From Streptomyces sp. NBC_01476 (GTDB lineage: Bacteria > Actinomycetota > Actinomycetes > Streptomycetales > Streptomycetaceae): a DNA stretch of 64,000 bases. A model generated the notes under the pieces. It saw only the letters and a list, made by a program, of their open reading frames with translations, was not told the origin of the DNA and did no database searches. The stretch is from positions 6,713,001 to 6,777,000 of the forward strand of contig NZ_CP109446.1 in the NCBI RefSeq assembly GCF_036227265.1, given 5' to 3'. Of the stretch, positions 57,241 through 63,423 are shown piece after piece (positions within the stretch are counted from its first letter, which is position 1; the number at the start of each line of letters is the position of its first letter). A program made the translations under genes and the position numbers.

Positions 57241-57314
<74 letters not shown>

Positions 57315-57322
57315 CGGTGCGA

Positions 57323-57509: not shown

Positions 57510-58736
57510 CTACAACCGGCGGAGGGTCGCGGACATGCCGGGGGAGGGCGGCGGGAGGCCCGGGGTGGCGGTCAGGTGGGTGCTGAGGTCCCGTCCGGCA
57601 CGGACGACGCTTTGCAGGTCGGGGTGGAGGTAGCGCTGGGTTGTCTGCAGGGAGCCGTGCCCGGCGATCAACCGCAGGACGTGCAGGGGGACCCCGGCGT
57701 CCGCCATCCACGTCAGGCCGGTGTGGCGCAGGTCGTGCCGGCGCAGGTGCTCGTAGCCGAGGGACTGGACGACCTCGTCCCAGTGGGTGGCGTCGCGCAG
57801 CACGGCGGTGGTGATCCGGCCGCCGCGGGGGCCGGTGAACAGCCGGGCATCGGCTCTTCCGCCGAGGGCGAGCACGCGCTGGGCAACCATGGGACGCAGC
57901 TCGTCGATGAGCGGGACGCGGCGGGCGACCTTTCCCTTGGTGTTCTTGTCGGCGAGGCCGCCGGGGGACGGGGTGGTCTGCCGCCGGAGGTTCCAGATCC
58001 AGTTCGCGGTGTCGATGTCCTTGACCCGCACGCCGGAGACTTCGCCGATGCGGGCGGCGGTGCAGGCGGCGAAGGTCACCACATCGCCCCAGCCGCGGTA
58101 CTGGTCGAAGGATCTGGCGACCAGGGCCTGGCTGAGTTCCTGGAGCGCGTCCCAGTCACGCAGTGCCAGGGAGCGGGGGTCGTCGAGTTCATCCTCGGCC
58201 AGCTGGTACTGCCGCTGCCATCCCTTGATCCGGGCGGGATTGGCGGTGATCAGACCGTCGCGGACAGCCTGCTCCATGACCCGCACCAGGACGGCGAGGC
58301 TGTTCTTGACCGTCGAGCGGCCCTCGCCGTCGGCGATCCACGCGTAGACGGTGCGGTCGACGGCCCCGTTGGTGACCATGGTCACCGGCAGGTGCCCGAG
58401 CGCGGGCACGACCCGCAGCCGCCACCCGGCCAGGTAGGGGTCGGTGGTCTTGGGCTCAAGCCCGCGCAGCGCCAGTTGCATATGGGCGTCGCCGTACTCG
58501 GCCAGGGACTGGGTCGCGGCCGACGGGTCGATCCCCCGGCCCGCCGAGGCGAGCAGGGAGTCGATCCAATCCTGCGCCGCCTCGTTAGTGGCGTGCATCT
58601 GGGCGACGGAGCGTCGGCGCTTGGTGTGGGGGTCCACCCAGCGCATGCGCGCCTTGTAGGGGAGCTTCCGGCCGGGGCGCTGCTCGACGTCGTGCGACAG
58701 AGGGACAGCGATGGGAAGTTGGTGACGGTAGGCCAC
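57510..58736 (-). CDS. int: tyrosine recombinase (site-specific integrase)
   Basis: From the GTG at 58736 the protein has 408 residues. An N-terminal SAM-like core-binding domain (about 60-160) precedes the catalytic domain. The catalytic residues are Arg in CTAARIGEVSG, the HxxR box in RRHDLRHTGL, His in IAGHGSLQTTQ and the nucleophilic Tyr in TQRYLHPDL. The gene is one base behind the excisionase-like gene, so they form a coupled int-xis unit. Its 3' end faces tRNA-Pro, the probable attachment site. A Pro-rich tail follows the active site. Confidence 0.94.
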   Translation of the reverse strand: MAYRHQLPIAVPLSHDVEQRPGRKLPYKARMRWVDPHTKRRRSVAQMHATNEAAQDWIDSLLASAGRGIDPSAATQSLAEYGDAHMQLALRGLEPKTTDPYLAGWRLRVVPALGHLPVTMVTNGAVDRTVYAWIADGEGRSTVKNSLAVLVRVMEQAVRDGLITANPARIKGWQRQYQLAEDELDDPRSLALRDWDALQELSQALVARSFDQYRGWGDVVTFAACTAARIGEVSGVRVKDIDTANWIWNLRRQTTPSPGGLADKNTKGKVARRVPLIDELRPMVAQRVLALGGRADARLFTGPRGGRITTAVLRDATHWDEVVQSLGYEHLRRHDLRHTGLTWMADAGVPLHVLRLIAGHGSLQTTQRYLHPDLQSVVRAGRDLSTHLTATPGLPPPSPGMSATLRRL

Positions 58737-58737
58737 G

Positions 58738-59025
58738 TCAGGCCGCCTTCCGCCGAGAGCCAGGCACGGAACGGCGCTCGTCCAGCCAGCCCTGCAAATC
58801 ATCGGCGCCGTACAGAACCACGCGCTCGGACAGCCGGATAAAGGGCGGACCCTGCGGGGGACGTTCCGCCCGCCACCGCCGAACCGAGGACGGATCGACC
58901 CGCAGGAGTCGGGCCACTTCTTCGGTGGTCAGCAGTCGTGAGGTCCGTAGCCCTGCGGGGGTGGCATCGACAGCGTGCCGGGTCGGAGCGGAGTGGGCTG
59001 CTGGTATGGCGGAGCGTTGGGGCAT
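58738..59025 (-). CDS. excisionase-like helix-turn-helix protein
   Basis: From the ATG at 59025 (MPQRSAIPAAHSAP) the protein has 95 residues. It carries a MerR-like/AlpA HTH_17 domain: LLTTEEVARLLRVDPSSVRRW, wing FIRLSERVVLYGADDLQGWLDERR. Such proteins are directionality factors or regulators in integrative elements. The gene lies directly upstream of the integrase. A longer frame from 59112 overlaps a perfect hairpin and is unlikely. Confidence 0.85.
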   Translation of the reverse strand: MPQRSAIPAAHSAPTRHAVDATPAGLRTSRLLTTEEVARLLRVDPSSVRRWRAERPPQGPPFIRLSERVVLYGADDLQGWLDERRSVPGSRRKAA

Positions 59026-59095
59026 GCACTTCCTTGACGTCGGCTTCAGGAGCAAGACAAAACGATGGACACAAACCCCACGAAGTCCAGCCAAG

Positions 59096-59128
59096 CAGCG
59101 GCTGTTCTCCATGGGAGAACAGCCGCTG
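59096..59128. repeat. 15-bp perfect hairpin, 3-nt loop
   Basis: CAGCGGCTGTTCTCC (59096-59110) pairs with 59114-59128 around ATG. It lies 70 bp upstream of the excisionase-like start (minus strand) and 40 bp before the first 32-bp repeat. Confidence 0.75.
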
Positions 59129-59167
59129 GCTGAACAGGGATCCGCTATCCATCTTCATCAAGAAAGG

Positions 59168-59199
59168 CGTTTTGCCTGACGGCATTTTCCGTGTTATCA
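59168..59199 (+). promoter_or_regulatory. 32-bp direct repeat, copy 1 (promoter/operator-like)
   Basis: A 32-base sequence starting CGTTTTGCCTGACGGCATTT and ending CCGTGTTATCA is identical here and at 60757-60788. It contains TGCC-TGAC-GGCA as small palindrome. TTGCCT and TATCAC are spaced by 17 bp, like a -35/-10 pair in the plus direction. About 12 of the 20 bases upstream also match between copies. The nuclease gene starts 440 bp downstream. Confidence 0.75.
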
Positions 59200-59410
59200 C
59201 GCCCGGGCGTGGACTGCCTTCAGCCGCTGACCCACTCGCAGATGACACGGGCCGACCGCGGAGCGCGGGGGAGGGACGCCCGCCAAAGTCACACAGATGA
59301 CCGGACGCACAAGCACGATGAAGAGTCCCAGCCCCGCACGCAAGCGGCGTACCCAGGCCACTTGCGACGCACGCATACGCTGCCAGGGCGGGGCGGCAGG
59401 GCGGCAGGAA

Positions 59411-59639: not shown

Positions 59640-60521
59640 TTGAAGCTGTTCACGCTGGGTGATGGCAACGCTATAGAGATCGTACCGCAGGCGCTGGGAT
59701 TCGAGCGGGATCTCCAGAGGCTGGTCGAGGCGAACATGCCCGCGCTGCTGGGCGTCCGCTTCCTGGCGAGCGAGTACAGCACGGGCCCGGTGCACGGCGG
59801 GCGGATCGATTCGTTGGGGATCGACGAGAACGGTGCTCCGGTAGTGGTGGAGTACAAGCGCGAGCGTGACCCGGGGGTGATCACCCAGGGGCTGTTCTAC
59901 CTGGCATGGCTGACCGATCACCGGGCGGAATTCGAGGCCCTGGTCCGCGACCGGCTCGGGGTTCCGACCGCGGCCCAGGTGCTGTGGAGCGCACCGAGGC
60001 TGATCTGCGTCGCGGAGGATTTCACCCGCTACGACCGGCACGCGGTCGGTGAGATCCGCCGCTGCATCGACCTGGTCCGCTACCGCTTCTTCGGCGCCGG
60101 CCTGCTCGGCCTTGAGCCGGTCGTCACCGCCGCGGCCCGCGACCGCGGCCGGGGAGCGGGGTCGGGCCGCGCCGGGCGCATGCCGAAGAGGCAGCCGACC
60201 GGGGGCGGGATCGGCGAGCTGCGGGACGCGCTGGACGAGGTGCTGGTGTCCTTGGGCGAGGACGTGCGGCGGATCGAGCGCAAGCAGTACCGGGCCTACC
60301 GCAGGCTGCGGAACGTCGCCTGCGTCGGCCGCGGCCACCGCAGTGAGGTGCTGGTATACCTGCGGGCGGATCCCAAGAAGGTCGACCTCGTACCTGGGTT
60401 CAGCCGGGATGTGAGCGGTCTGGGTCATCACGGGACCGGTGACCTGGAGGTCCGGCTGCGCACCGAGAACGACCTGGAGCGCGCCAGCGACCTGCTGCGG
60501 CTCAGCTACGCCGCGGCGTAG
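59640..60521 (+). CDS. PD-(D/E)XK nuclease-like protein with DUF5655-like C-terminus
   Basis: The TTG at 59640, with AAGG and GGTGG upstream, gives 293 residues. The N-terminal domain shows RIDSLGIDENGAPVVVEYKRE, that is D57 and E71-x-K73, a PD-(D/E)XK nuclease core like that of NucS-type endonucleases. A linker with many Arg/Gly (about 165-185) leads to a C-terminal domain of about 100 residues resembling DUF5655 (VACVGRGHRSEVLVYLRADPKKVD). It probably binds or cuts damaged or branched DNA. It lies on the tRNA-Pro element and shares an upstream repeat with the polymerase-like gene. Confidence 0.8.
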   Translation: MKLFTLGDGNAIEIVPQALGFERDLQRLVEANMPALLGVRFLASEYSTGPVHGGRIDSLGIDENGAPVVVEYKRERDPGVITQGLFYLAWLTDHRAEFEALVRDRLGVPTAAQVLWSAPRLICVAEDFTRYDRHAVGEIRRCIDLVRYRFFGAGLLGLEPVVTAAARDRGRGAGSGRAGRMPKRQPTGGGIGELRDALDEVLVSLGEDVRRIERKQYRAYRRLRNVACVGRGHRSEVLVYLRADPKKVDLVPGFSRDVSGLGHHGTGDLEVRLRTENDLERASDLLRLSYAAA

Positions 60522-61053
60522 CGGGCCGCTACGGGTGGCGAGGATGGGTGTCGGCCGGACCGGGCGGCACCCATCGGCGTGCCTGCGGCGGAGCTGCTTC
60601 GACGGGTGCGAGCGCCGGGCTGACACATGGGAGCGCTGATGGTCCCGCACGGAATGCGGCTCTGTGTCAGGGATGCGCATGGAGGTGGCGGTGGCGGCTC
60701 CTTTCGTCGGCACGGGCGGGAGGTGGCGGTGTGTATTCCATGATGCTGAGAAAAGACGTTTTGCCTGACGGCATTTTCCGTGTTATCAGGCGCCTGGGCT
60801 CGGACCCAGGGCAGTCGGCGGGTCGTCATCGCGTCCGCCGGTCCGTCGCACCATCGGCTGGAGACGCCGGTCCCGTGTCGCGTTCCGCGCGGTAGGCCAG
60901 GCGATGCGGGCCCTCGGGTAGCGGCTGAGACGTTGGGGTGTCGCGGGCCGCTGTATCGCCGCACCGGTCTTGGCTTCTGAGGAGAGTGCATCCCGCGCAG
61001 CGTGTTCGAATTAAGTTCGAGTAGCTTTGGGGTTCGATCCGGGAGGTGGCCAC
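60522..61053. other. 532-bp intergenic region upstream of the polymerase-like gene
   Basis: There is no supported gene. It contains the second copy of the 32-bp direct repeat followed by the palindrome CAGGCGCCTG (60787-60796). Near 61000 a less GC-rich part (GTGTTCGAATTAAGTTCGAGTAG) contains TTCGA twice, facing GGGAGG just before the ATG at 61054. Confidence 0.55.
60757..60788 (+). promoter_or_regulatory. 32-bp direct repeat, copy 2 (promoter/operator-like)
   Basis: Identical to 59168-59199 over 32 bases. It lies 265 bp upstream of the Y-family polymerase-like gene, and like copy 1 is followed directly by a perfect palindrome, although the palindromes differ. A shared control site is likelier than a transposon end, since the copies are direct and each precedes a gene. 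Confidence 0.75.
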
Positions 61054-62064
61054 ATGGAGATGCCGCAGCAGGCTGCTGTGCGGGGAGCGCATGTGCTGCA
61101 TGTGCGGTGCCGGCCGGGAACCGGTGAAGCGGGCTACTGGGCCCTGCTTGACCTGGCCTGCGATGTCTCGCCGGTGGTGCAGGTGCTCCCGCCGGCTGCC
61201 GCGCTGGTCGATGTGGCGGGGGCGCTTCGTTACTGGGACGCCTCCCCTTGGGATCTGGGCATGCGGTTGCGGCTGCGCGCCGCGGCCCTCCTGGGGATCG
61301 ACGTGCGGGTGGGGGCCGGCCCGAACTGGACGGTCGCTGCGATGGCCTCCAAGGGGCCGCTGCCGGTGGCCCTGGTGCCCGACGACTCGGTGGCGGTGAG
61401 GTCGTTCCTGGATCCGCTGCCGGTCGGCATGCTGCACGGCATCGGCCCGGTCCAGGCCGAGCGGCTGGTCTCCTTCGGTCTGCACAGCGTCGGCCTGCTG
61501 GCCGCGACCCCGGAGGGCACCGTGCAGCGGATCCTCGGCGGCCGGGCCGGCCGCCTGCTGCGCGACCGCGCCCTCGGCATCGACCCGCGCCCGGTGACCC
61601 CGTCCAGCCTGCCCTCCTCCACCAGGGAGCGTCGCATCTTCGACCGCGACACCCTCGACGCCGAAGCGGTTCGTACCGCGCTGCTGGAATCCGCGGTCGC
61701 CCTGGGGGCCCGGCTGCGCGCCCGGCAGCAGATCGCCGGCACCCTCGCACTGGAGGTCGCCTTCGCCGACGGCTCAGCCATCACCCGCACCCGGACGCTT
61801 CCCGAACCCTCATGCCACACCGACGACCTGCGCACGGCTGCGTACGGGGTGTTCCAGGCGCTGCACCTGGAGCGCGCCCGTATCCGCGCGATCACCCTTA
61901 CGGTGGACAAGCTCGCCGCGGCCGGCAGCGCGGGCGGGCAGATCAGCCTGGACCGGGCCCGGGAGAACCGGCTGCGCGCCGAGCCTGTCATCGACGAGCT
62001 GAATGCCAGGTTCGGTCCTGGCGCGGTACGTCCGGCGGCCCTGTCGTGGCGCCGAGCGGGCTGA
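61054..62064 (+). CDS. Y-family DNA polymerase-like protein, catalytic acids apparently missing
   Basis: From the ATG at 61054, with GGGAGG upstream, the protein has 336 residues. The helix-hairpin-helix thumb segment is clear (LPVGMLHGIGPVQAERLVSFGLHSVGLLAATP), followed by GRAGRLLRDRALGIDPRPVTP and a little-finger domain. In active enzymes the N-terminus reads like HVDMDAFFA and later SIDEAFLD; here the matching parts are VLHVRCRPGTGE and ALVDVAGALRYW, so most metal-binding acids are not seen. It resembles ImuB-type non-catalytic partners of mutagenic repair. This reading rests on motifs, not an alignment. Confidence 0.82.
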   Translation: MEMPQQAAVRGAHVLHVRCRPGTGEAGYWALLDLACDVSPVVQVLPPAAALVDVAGALRYWDASPWDLGMRLRLRAAALLGIDVRVGAGPNWTVAAMASKGPLPVALVPDDSVAVRSFLDPLPVGMLHGIGPVQAERLVSFGLHSVGLLAATPEGTVQRILGGRAGRLLRDRALGIDPRPVTPSSLPSSTRERRIFDRDTLDAEAVRTALLESAVALGARLRARQQIAGTLALEVAFADGSAITRTRTLPEPSCHTDDLRTAAYGVFQALHLERARIRAITLTVDKLAAAGSAGGQISLDRARENRLRAEPVIDELNARFGPGAVRPAALSWRRAG

Positions 62065-62211: not shown

Positions 62212-63423
62212 ATGAACAACCAGCAAGCCGCCGCCGTGCCGGCCGACCCGACACAGCTGATGGTGGAGTTCACCCACGTGCACCGGTTCCTGGACCCGGC
62301 CGAGCGGGGCGTGCAGACCTGGCGGGTCCGGCTTACGGCCCAGGACCGGCCGGTGGGGACTTTTCGGGTGACCCGCGGCTTGTACTGGAAGAGCGGCAAT
62401 CTGCGTGAGCGGCTGTCCGATGAGCAGGGGTTCCCGGAGGTGGTGGCCGGGCAGCTGCTGAACTCCGACGGGTCGTTCAGTACCGCGTTCGAGGCTTTCG
62501 TGGAGATGGCCGGCAGCATTGTGGTGGTGGAGCTGCTGGAGCTGGCCGAGCCCTGGGACGACGCGGCGCTGGTGGCCGGGGTGGTCGCCAGCATCATCGA
62601 CCGCCTGGCGGACAACGACTGCGCCGTGGTCTTCCCCCGCGCCGACGAACCGGACGCCACACGCTGCCAGGAGGTGCTGGCGCAGGCCGCCGCACTGCTG
62701 AGCGCCGCGTACTTCTCCGACGAGCTGCAGATCATCGACACCGCTCTGGACGCCCCGGAACAGGCCGCGAAGCAGGTACGCGGGCACCTGTGCGCGCGCA
62801 TCGCCGTTGTGGGCGCCGATTTCTGGGACGAGGACGACGAGGGCACCGGCGATGAGGACTACCCGGTGCTCACGGCCCGGTCGGCGGCGGTGCTGCGCCG
62901 TGCGCTGGAGGACCTGTCGGATGAGGCGTGGCGGGAGGTGGCGTCGCTGGGCGGAGAGCCGTTGGGCCCGGGTGTCGGCGGGTTGTTCGGTTCCCTGCCG
63001 CGGGTGACCTTCAACCAGGGCGGGCCGTGGCGGCGGCAGATGGCCCGTGCCTTTGATGACCTGGCGGCCGATCTGGCCGGCGGGGTCGAGGTCGTGCCGC
63101 GCTGTACGGGTGAGGAGATGGCGCTGCACCTGGGCATCGCTCGCGCCCGGGCACTGACGCGCAACCGCCCCCGACTGGTCGCCGAGAGCGTCGCCGGTCT
63201 CCCGGAGGACCGGCGCGACTTCGGGTGGGAAGCCGCCTCCGAGGAGCTGTTCGAGGACGGTGACGTGCTCATGCTGTTCGACCAGAGCCTGGACGGCATC
63301 GAGAACAGCGGCAACGAGGCTAACCAGGCGCTGGGCATGGTCAACCTCGCCCCGGTCGACTGGTTCACCGCGTTCGATGCCGACTTTGCCCGCGACCCCG
63401 GGCGAGGCTTCCGCAACCCCTGA
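62212..63423 (+). CDS. hypothetical protein of 403 residues
   Basis: The ATG at 62212 opens a 403-residue acidic protein without signal peptide or membrane helix. The N-terminal half is hydrophobic/acidic with a helical part (FVEMAGSIVVVELLELAEPWDDAALVAGVVASIIDRLADND). Acidic clusters occur in the centre (FWDEDDEGTGDEDYPVL) and end (EELFEDGDVLMLFDQSLDGIEN). I do not recognise a family. It follows the polymerase-like gene by 147 bp on the same strand in the integrative element. Confidence 0.75.
   Translation: MNNQQAAAVPADPTQLMVEFTHVHRFLDPAERGVQTWRVRLTAQDRPVGTFRVTRGLYWKSGNLRERLSDEQGFPEVVAGQLLNSDGSFSTAFEAFVEMAGSIVVVELLELAEPWDDAALVAGVVASIIDRLADNDCAVVFPRADEPDATRCQEVLAQAAALLSAAYFSDELQIIDTALDAPEQAAKQVRGHLCARIAVVGADFWDEDDEGTGDEDYPVLTARSAAVLRRALEDLSDEAWREVASLGGEPLGPGVGGLFGSLPRVTFNQGGPWRRQMARAFDDLAADLAGGVEVVPRCTGEEMALHLGIARARALTRNRPRLVAESVAGLPEDRRDFGWEAASEELFEDGDVLMLFDQSLDGIENSGNEANQALGMVNLAPVDWFTAFDADFARDPGRGFRNP

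Follow-up and report, generated by a model that had tools for sequence, protein, structure and literature searches.

ImuB is a catalytically dead member of the Y family of DNA polymerases that carries a clamp-binding motif and a RecA-NT motif, and in the mycobacterial protein the latter is reported to be critical for ImuA' binding (PMC11791113). A 2026 study modeled the ImuB-C domain as the main contact of ImuB with DnaE2 and the thumb as one of two such contacts (PMC12926913). A second inactive group is known from Streptomyces: a review describes for Streptomyces coelicolor a DinB2 gene overlapping dnaE2, and this DinB2 was classed as an inactive Y-family polymerase in 2019 (PMC6511836). The scDinB2-like protein is the inactive polymerase (iPolY) of a putative DnaE2B-iPolY-RecA complex (PMC12926913). 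Both group-defining papers tie iPolY to dnaE2 (PMC6511836, PMC12926913), with the gene "often" in the dnaE2 operon, and hence not obligatorily so (PMC12926913, PMC6511836). The literature covered, which for these two papers means passages of their main texts, yielded no description of stand-alone iPolY copies, and the word "plasmid" is absent from both main texts (PMC6511836, PMC12926913).

The window analyzed here, a stretch of 64,000 nucleotides from Streptomyces sp. NBC_01476, contains a 336-amino-acid open reading frame on the plus strand (positions 61054 to 62064), an inactive Y-family (iPolY) gene. Its start codon is the ATG at 61054, and by inspection a ribosome-binding-like GGGAGGTGG lies close upstream (61041 to 61049, plus strand). 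A preliminary description of this DNA had the reading frame, its coordinates, and its quoted peptides correct, and the thumb and little-finger parts that it recognized were confirmed by Pfam. IMS_HHH matched residues 114 to 143 (E = 2.1e-5; helix-hairpin-helix thumb motif, 61393 to 61482, plus strand), and IMS_C matched residues 193 to 299 (E = 1.2e-17; little-finger domain, 61630 to 61950, plus strand). The IMS model gave a match below the cut-off and with its C-terminal part only (residues 39 to 100 against model positions 88 to 148). All nine NCBIfam matches were to DNA polymerase IV models, far under their cut-offs, and in the best alignment residue 30 fell on model position 85. The closest solved structure by sequence was 7yll, a Pol IV (E = 2.8e-22). 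An AlphaFold2 model built from a four-row alignment had a mean pLDDT of 56 and an unreliable N-terminal half; the 50 Foldseek matches listed for this low-confidence model were Y-family polymerases by title, with rmsd values above 10 Å. The gene is under purifying selection, with a dN of 0.139 and a dS of 0.56 relative to its nearest orthologue (L008) and dN/dS ratios of approximately 0.25 to 0.38 relative to three orthologues. Downstream lies a 403-amino-acid open reading frame (62212 to 63423) for which neither Pfam, NCBIfam, and PADLOC nor PHROG gave a match at the limits applied; a 34% partial match to it occurs near the closest orthologue (L008, L069).

The protein was compared with relatives from 87 loci, which were called orphan when no dnaE2 match ended within about 3.2 kb upstream (only 0.8 kb was available for L072 and 2.9 kb for L079) and linked otherwise. 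The tree and alignment hold 80 of these (36 orphan and 44 linked) plus DinB. Proteins of fewer than 310 residues (L059, L064, L065, L067, L068, and L077) and L143, with a 393-residue start artifact, were left out, and L143 was counted in the neighborhood and promoter sets of 37 orphan loci. The preliminary description regarded the window protein as a Y-family relative that lacks its active-site acids, and the alignments agree, as R18, A48, and A49 occupy the three catalytic-acid positions. When the 36 orphan rows were aligned as a profile with DinB1 (usable sequence from 17 of 25 DinB loci), the match had a probability of 99.87 and an E value of 1.7e-31 over residues 30 to 273 against 84 to 325. 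In this alignment, A48 and A49 fall on the D and E of S-x-D-E, within PPAAALVDV (residues 46 to 54; 61189 to 61215, plus strand), and D53 falls on the other conserved D, in F-L-D-L. Because the aligners did not cover the strand bearing the first palm motif, we matched it by eye on the shared H, which places H-V-R (residues 16 to 18; 61099 to 61107, plus strand) in the position of H-x-D. Among the 36 orphan rows, 35 carry R at residue 18, and 42 of the 44 linked rows have H or R there; neither group has an acid at this residue (0/36 and 0/44). None of the 80 rows has an acid at the E position, and at the D position 4/36 orphan rows have one versus 35/44 linked rows. Other acids occur nearby, at position 21 in 16/36 orphan rows (absent from the window copy) and at position 53 in 33/36, but neither position aligns with a catalytic one, and D53 is the sole acid within residues 13 to 23 and 43 to 57 of the window protein. 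We also looked, at the sequence and profile levels, for three acids conserved in shifted positions, which the preliminary description had considered, and found no such set. In host DinB, 94 residues separate the aspartates of the H-L-D and S-L-D-E motifs (D21 and D115, reading-frame numbering), whereas their counterparts R18 and A48 are separated by 30; this stretch is thus 64 residues shorter in the window protein, and most of the part that contains the fingers is missing. Judged from its sequence, the window protein is a non-catalytic Y-family homologue.

Y-family proteins carry clamp motifs after the little finger. The window protein has a candidate in this place, QISLD (residues 296 to 300; 61939 to 61953, plus strand), which agrees with the clamp-binding consensus and has a predicted clamp role assigned by analogy; such a motif was among the features that the preliminary description proposed to look for. 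The pentapeptide, Q-I/L-S/T-L/F-D, is mostly kept in both groups, with Q at the first position in 92% of the 36 orphan and 100% of the 44 linked rows, L at the fourth in 86% and 66%, and D at the last in 86% and 93%, respectively. Three orphan rows are quite different at this site. These are probably L061, L062, and L063, members of a third orphan group that has diverged further and whose boxes read TCGAGC-N4-GTTCGA. Residues 306 to 330 (61969 to 62043, plus strand) form a RecA-NT-like segment, the best of all offsets against the N terminus of host RecA at the profile level (z = 3.7 for the orphan and 4.7 for the linked profile); for the window sequence alone the match was not significant, with 333 of 2,000 shuffles reaching its score. 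The protein ends six residues past this segment, and no further Pfam domain, ImuB-C included, scored above the cut-off. The share of positions at which the orphan and linked groups have the same consensus residue (32 and 39 rows, with domain limits set by hand) is largest in the thumb (47/75, versus 44/99, 49/105, and 20/46 elsewhere).

The window protein fits the dnaE2-linked inactive DinB2 proteins of Streptomyces (scDinB2-like iPolY) by sequence relationship. It is 42% identical to a host IMS_C paralogue whose start overlaps dnaE2 by 4 bp, versus 32% identical to host DinB, and the tree groups it with the dnaE2-linked DinB2-type proteins and not with DinB1. The scDinB2 identity of this group rests on the dnaE2 overlap known from print, and likeness to it was judged on the dnaE2-linked copies collected here, a comparison that did not include the S. 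coelicolor DinB2 sequence itself. With the scDinB2 group (PMC6511836, PMC12926913), the window protein shares its domain order, disrupted catalytic acids, RecA-NT-like tail, clamp-type motif, and SOS-like control. In contrast to that group, it stands alone on an island in which no DnaE match was found, it has lost the D of the acid pair, and its promoter box has a 3-nucleotide spacer. A homologous palm remnant, thumb, and little finger are shared with DinB1/Pol IV, but the three catalytic acids of an active enzyme are missing, the inter-palm stretch is shortened, and a RecA-NT-like tail is present. Reduced ImuBs still have a thumb and little finger (PMC12926913), as does the window protein, and the clamp-type and RecA-NT-like motifs are further points of resemblance. 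We nevertheless rejected its identification as ImuB itself, as it has no ImuB-C domain, the locus has no dnaE2, and no ImuA was found in the host genome, where a single RecA-family match was obtained at E = 0.001, a threshold that a very divergent ImuA could escape. The ImuB-like adaptor of the preliminary description therefore holds as to its non-catalytic, ImuB-like kind, but the protein is not ImuB and fits the scDinB2-like inactive group.

The 80-row tree with DinB places the window copy among 37 rows that form a clade with support of 100/99; dnaE2 is absent beside 32 of these rows and present beside 5. A second clade of 38 rows, whose support of 82/86 does not reach the starred level, includes 37 rows with dnaE2, and neither clade takes in the remaining three orphan and two linked rows. 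On this tree, the orphan/linked label requires five changes, with three forced by well-supported branches, indicating that the two kinds do not separate in one clean split. The window protein matched 168 plasmid records (134 of them from Streptomyces), 84 of these over at least 80% of the query; the five plasmid records examined are all linear, and three hold orphan copies. Among 297 genomes of the family, 44 had a match at E = 1e-70, although at this cut-off some of the matches are linked copies. The viral contigs searched gave one short match of 43% identity, and phage records gave three matches, the best of 34.8% over 80%.

The host genome encodes three IMS_C proteins, two DnaE proteins, one RecA-family match, and two Ku proteins. 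Its dnaE2-DinB2 pair lies 1.8 Mb from the window copy, so that a candidate dnaE2 partner of the kind the preliminary description proposed to look for does exist elsewhere in the genome. A DnaE2-type gene was found in all 28 orphan-bearing genomes checked, beside a linked copy in 24 and standing alone in 4 (G001, G076, G171, and G244), where no linked copy lay within the 18 kb examined; the four lone products are 55 to 58% identical to a plasmid DnaE2. The orphan is thus usually not the sole copy. A second DnaE match occurs as well in 27 of the 28 comparison genomes, so that this count does not discriminate; freedom from orphan copies was no criterion in choosing these genomes, and G060 and G056 show extra or partial matches. 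The idea that an orphan replaces a lost linked copy was rejected because no enrichment was seen: among the 9 of 56 genomes with no match at E = 1e-30, 8 have a second DnaE, with DnaE1 and DnaE2 counted together. Stops inside some linked matches fall at the natural protein end, judged by the match ends, and were not counted as pseudogenes. G076, which holds an orphan copy and a lone dnaE2, also has a second DnaE directly behind a 520-amino-acid open reading frame with weak (27 to 33%) matches to linked iPolY (L196:7352-12059); on these matches, the two look like an ImuB-DnaE2 pair.

The promoter of the window gene contains an SOS-box-like element, TCGAAT-TAA-GTTCGA (61006 to 61020, plus strand), with a 3-nucleotide rather than a 4-nucleotide spacer. 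This element was detected only by comparison; when the window was scanned for generic SOS boxes with up to three mismatches, 45 matches versus 23.6 expected were obtained, none of them in the iPolY promoter. The 20-mer pattern around the box occurs exactly once in the 8.4-Mb genome. The start-proximal box has the 4-nucleotide form (TCGA-A/T-T/C-N4-GTTCG) in 20 of 37 orphan genes and the same sequence with the shorter spacer in 8, the window gene included, while 9 have neither. Of the 28 genes that have one form or the other, 26 show TANNNT immediately behind the right half-site or one base farther on; in the window it reads TAGCTT (61022 to 61027, plus strand), a likely -10 element. An SOS-box-like site agreeing with the SOS box at 10 or more of its 12 fixed positions was present within 300 bp upstream of 25/37 orphan genes, compared to 0.4 expected from shuffles, although in about 7 of those 25 the top score belongs to a second site farther from the gene. 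For the dnaE2 genes of linked loci, the corresponding count was 37/38, and the site of host dnaE2 scores 11/12. The window box has a canonical score of only 8/12, which together with its 3-nucleotide spacer makes LexA control of the window copy uncertain.

Damage induction has been reported for a plasmid operon of S. venezuelae, pvnz_37140-pvnz_37135, which has the SOS box TCGAACACGTGCTC, is induced 15.4- and 7.5-fold by mitomycin, and includes pvnz_37135 as a LexA target (PMC9380542). On a plasmid of the same strain, we found the 14-mer TCGAACACGTGCTC starting 24 bp before a two-gene operon that ends in an orphan copy (L089); the printed position of the box is -14 (PMC9380542). By locus and sequence, this orphan matches pvnz_37135 of pSVJI1. 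An orphan copy is present in S. venezuelae NRRL B-65442. It belongs to the same orphan clade as the window copy, is plasmid-borne, and has no dnaE2 within about 9 kb, but unlike the window copy it is the second gene of its operon, behind an SOS box with a 4-nucleotide spacer (PMC9380542). The gene before it (L089:8729-8980) encodes an 83-residue protein with no Pfam family, overlaps the orphan copy by 4 bp, and is by locus the LexA-controlled pvnz_37140.

The preliminary description also regarded the window gene as element-borne, which the att pair corroborates. An attL-like 50-bp repeat (57271 to 57320, plus strand) comprises the 3' part of a tRNA-Pro gene (57241 to 57315) and recurs exactly at genome positions 6901152 to 6901201, where no tRNA was found. 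The repeats delimit an island of about 130.9 kb. A tyrosine integrase (57510 to 58802, minus strand; Phage_integrase, E = 3.6e-19) adjoins the tRNA, and an excisionase-like HTH_17 protein is encoded at 58738 to 59112 (minus strand; E = 1.5e-7). Integrase and excisionase were matched beside none of the relatives in the loci compared, indicating that the iPolY gene is carried in different contexts. The neighboring NucS_C/DUF5655-like gene (59640 to 60521, plus strand; Pfam and PADLOC) matches the PADLOC candidate defense family PDC-S18 with an E value of 9.4e-126 and is on that basis a candidate anti-phage gene. A partnership of its product with the Y-family protein, suggested earlier, did not hold up: the gene occurs near 2/37 orphan and 0/44 linked copies, these two being the window copy and its nearest orthologue, from which the gene is spaced differently, and we rejected it as a general partner. 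A 55-nucleotide direct repeat (84%, with a nearly identical core; 59148 to 59202 and 60737 to 60791) flanks this gene and could mark a small mobile cassette. Elsewhere on the island, two giant open reading frames of 7,682 and 3,564 amino acids (G000:C1 6814405-6837453 and 6869667-6880361) share a peptide near their starts.

Neighborhoods were compared over a median of about 8.5 kb on either side of orphan loci and 9 kb for linked loci, with families assigned by Pfam, and no neighbor was universal. A DUF6233 gene lies on the opposite strand upstream of orphan copies (L089 and L115 to L141) and is near 17/37 orphan versus 0/44 linked copies. Ku was found near 8/37 orphan versus 2/44 linked copies (Fisher P = 0.038), and ATP-dependent ligase was found near 4/37 versus 0/44 (Fisher P = 0.040).

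Our preferred reading, which we hold to be probable by a modest measure, is that the window protein is a mobile, damage-controlled adaptor linking clamp, RecA, and DNA for host DnaE2, with recruitment as the inferred step. The protein would be made after DNA damage and dock on the sliding clamp and RecA, its little finger would hold DNA, and its thumb would recruit host DnaE2 in trans, so that the error-prone mutasome of the host would gain an additional or exchangeable subunit. The sequence basis for this consists of the lost acids, the short palm and fingers, the retained thumb and little finger, the pentapeptide, the tail, the selection on the gene, and the SOS-like sites. DnaE2 in trans would be the likeliest partner, since the thumb is both the most shared region and a modeled DnaE2 contact and since every orphan-bearing genome checked has a DnaE2-type gene. 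Against the adaptor reading, the window protein has no ImuB-C, the main modeled contact of ImuB with DnaE2, and deletion of dnaE2 in S. coelicolor has no phenotype reported in secondary accounts (PMC3919608).

Docking parts without catalysis would allow the orphan to occupy the clamp, RecA, or DnaE2 and so damp or redirect the host mutasome. We consider such a decoy unlikely. In its favor, a complete dnaE2-linked pair is present in 24/28 orphan-bearing genomes, and the active-site D position, acidic in most linked copies, is lost in 32/36 orphans; against it, the conserved thumb suits a productive partner equally well, and inhibition is a proposal only. A DnaE2-independent role, in which orphans hold or align broken ends at the clamp for Ku and ligase repair or help to fill gaps on linear replicons, is doubtful. 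The Ku and ligase counts point to it, and end patching of linear replicons has been reported to require DinB1 or DinB2 (PMC4513846). Eight plasmid records are common to the relative and Ku matches listed; taking the best place per record, read by eye among those matches (40 relative and 60 Ku rows), Ku is within about 5 kb in four and more than 100 kb away in four. However, Ku occurs on 162 Streptomyces plasmid records, so that part of the excess may reflect a shared habitat; P rises to 0.071 without L079, an orphan inside the linked clade, and the window copy has no Ku beside it. Nearness to plasmid ends was rejected: the one-sided Kolmogorov-Smirnov P value was 0.025 (40 records), but 10 of 40 relatives were within 10% of an end versus 8 expected, which does not place them clearly closer (Ku control, 7/60 versus 12 expected). 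Our literature search found no paper on the subject of Streptomyces nonhomologous end joining and DinB.

That the window gene is a decaying duplicate without function is very unlikely; the accessory distribution (44/297 genomes) would suit it, but the low dN/dS relative to three orthologues, the conserved promoter element, and the full-length reading frame argue against decay. Residual or unconventional polymerase activity is the least credible reading. The NCBIfam DNA polymerase IV matches, all far below cut-off, speak for it, but at two of the three catalytic positions no acid occurs in any of the 80 rows, and the palm and fingers are short.

The iPolY group has been known since 2019. A well-supported mobile clade whose copies mostly lack dnaE2 implies that mutasome subunits spread without their polymerase. 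It is a speculative and rather improbable extension that this mobile, SOS-induced, dead Y-family clade has parted from DnaE2 and provides plasmids and islands with an independent docking factor that assists in break repair or the filling in of linear-DNA ends and not only in DnaE2 mutagenesis. Were it true, it would explain how a DinB2 without activity can replace DinB1 in telomere end patching, where Streptomyces DinB2 is described as interchangeable with DinB1 (PMC4513846). The puzzle is sharpened because the same DinB2 is inactive according to the 2019 study (PMC6511836). Of the three catalytic acids, two are missing from the 44 dnaE2-linked copies in our alignment.
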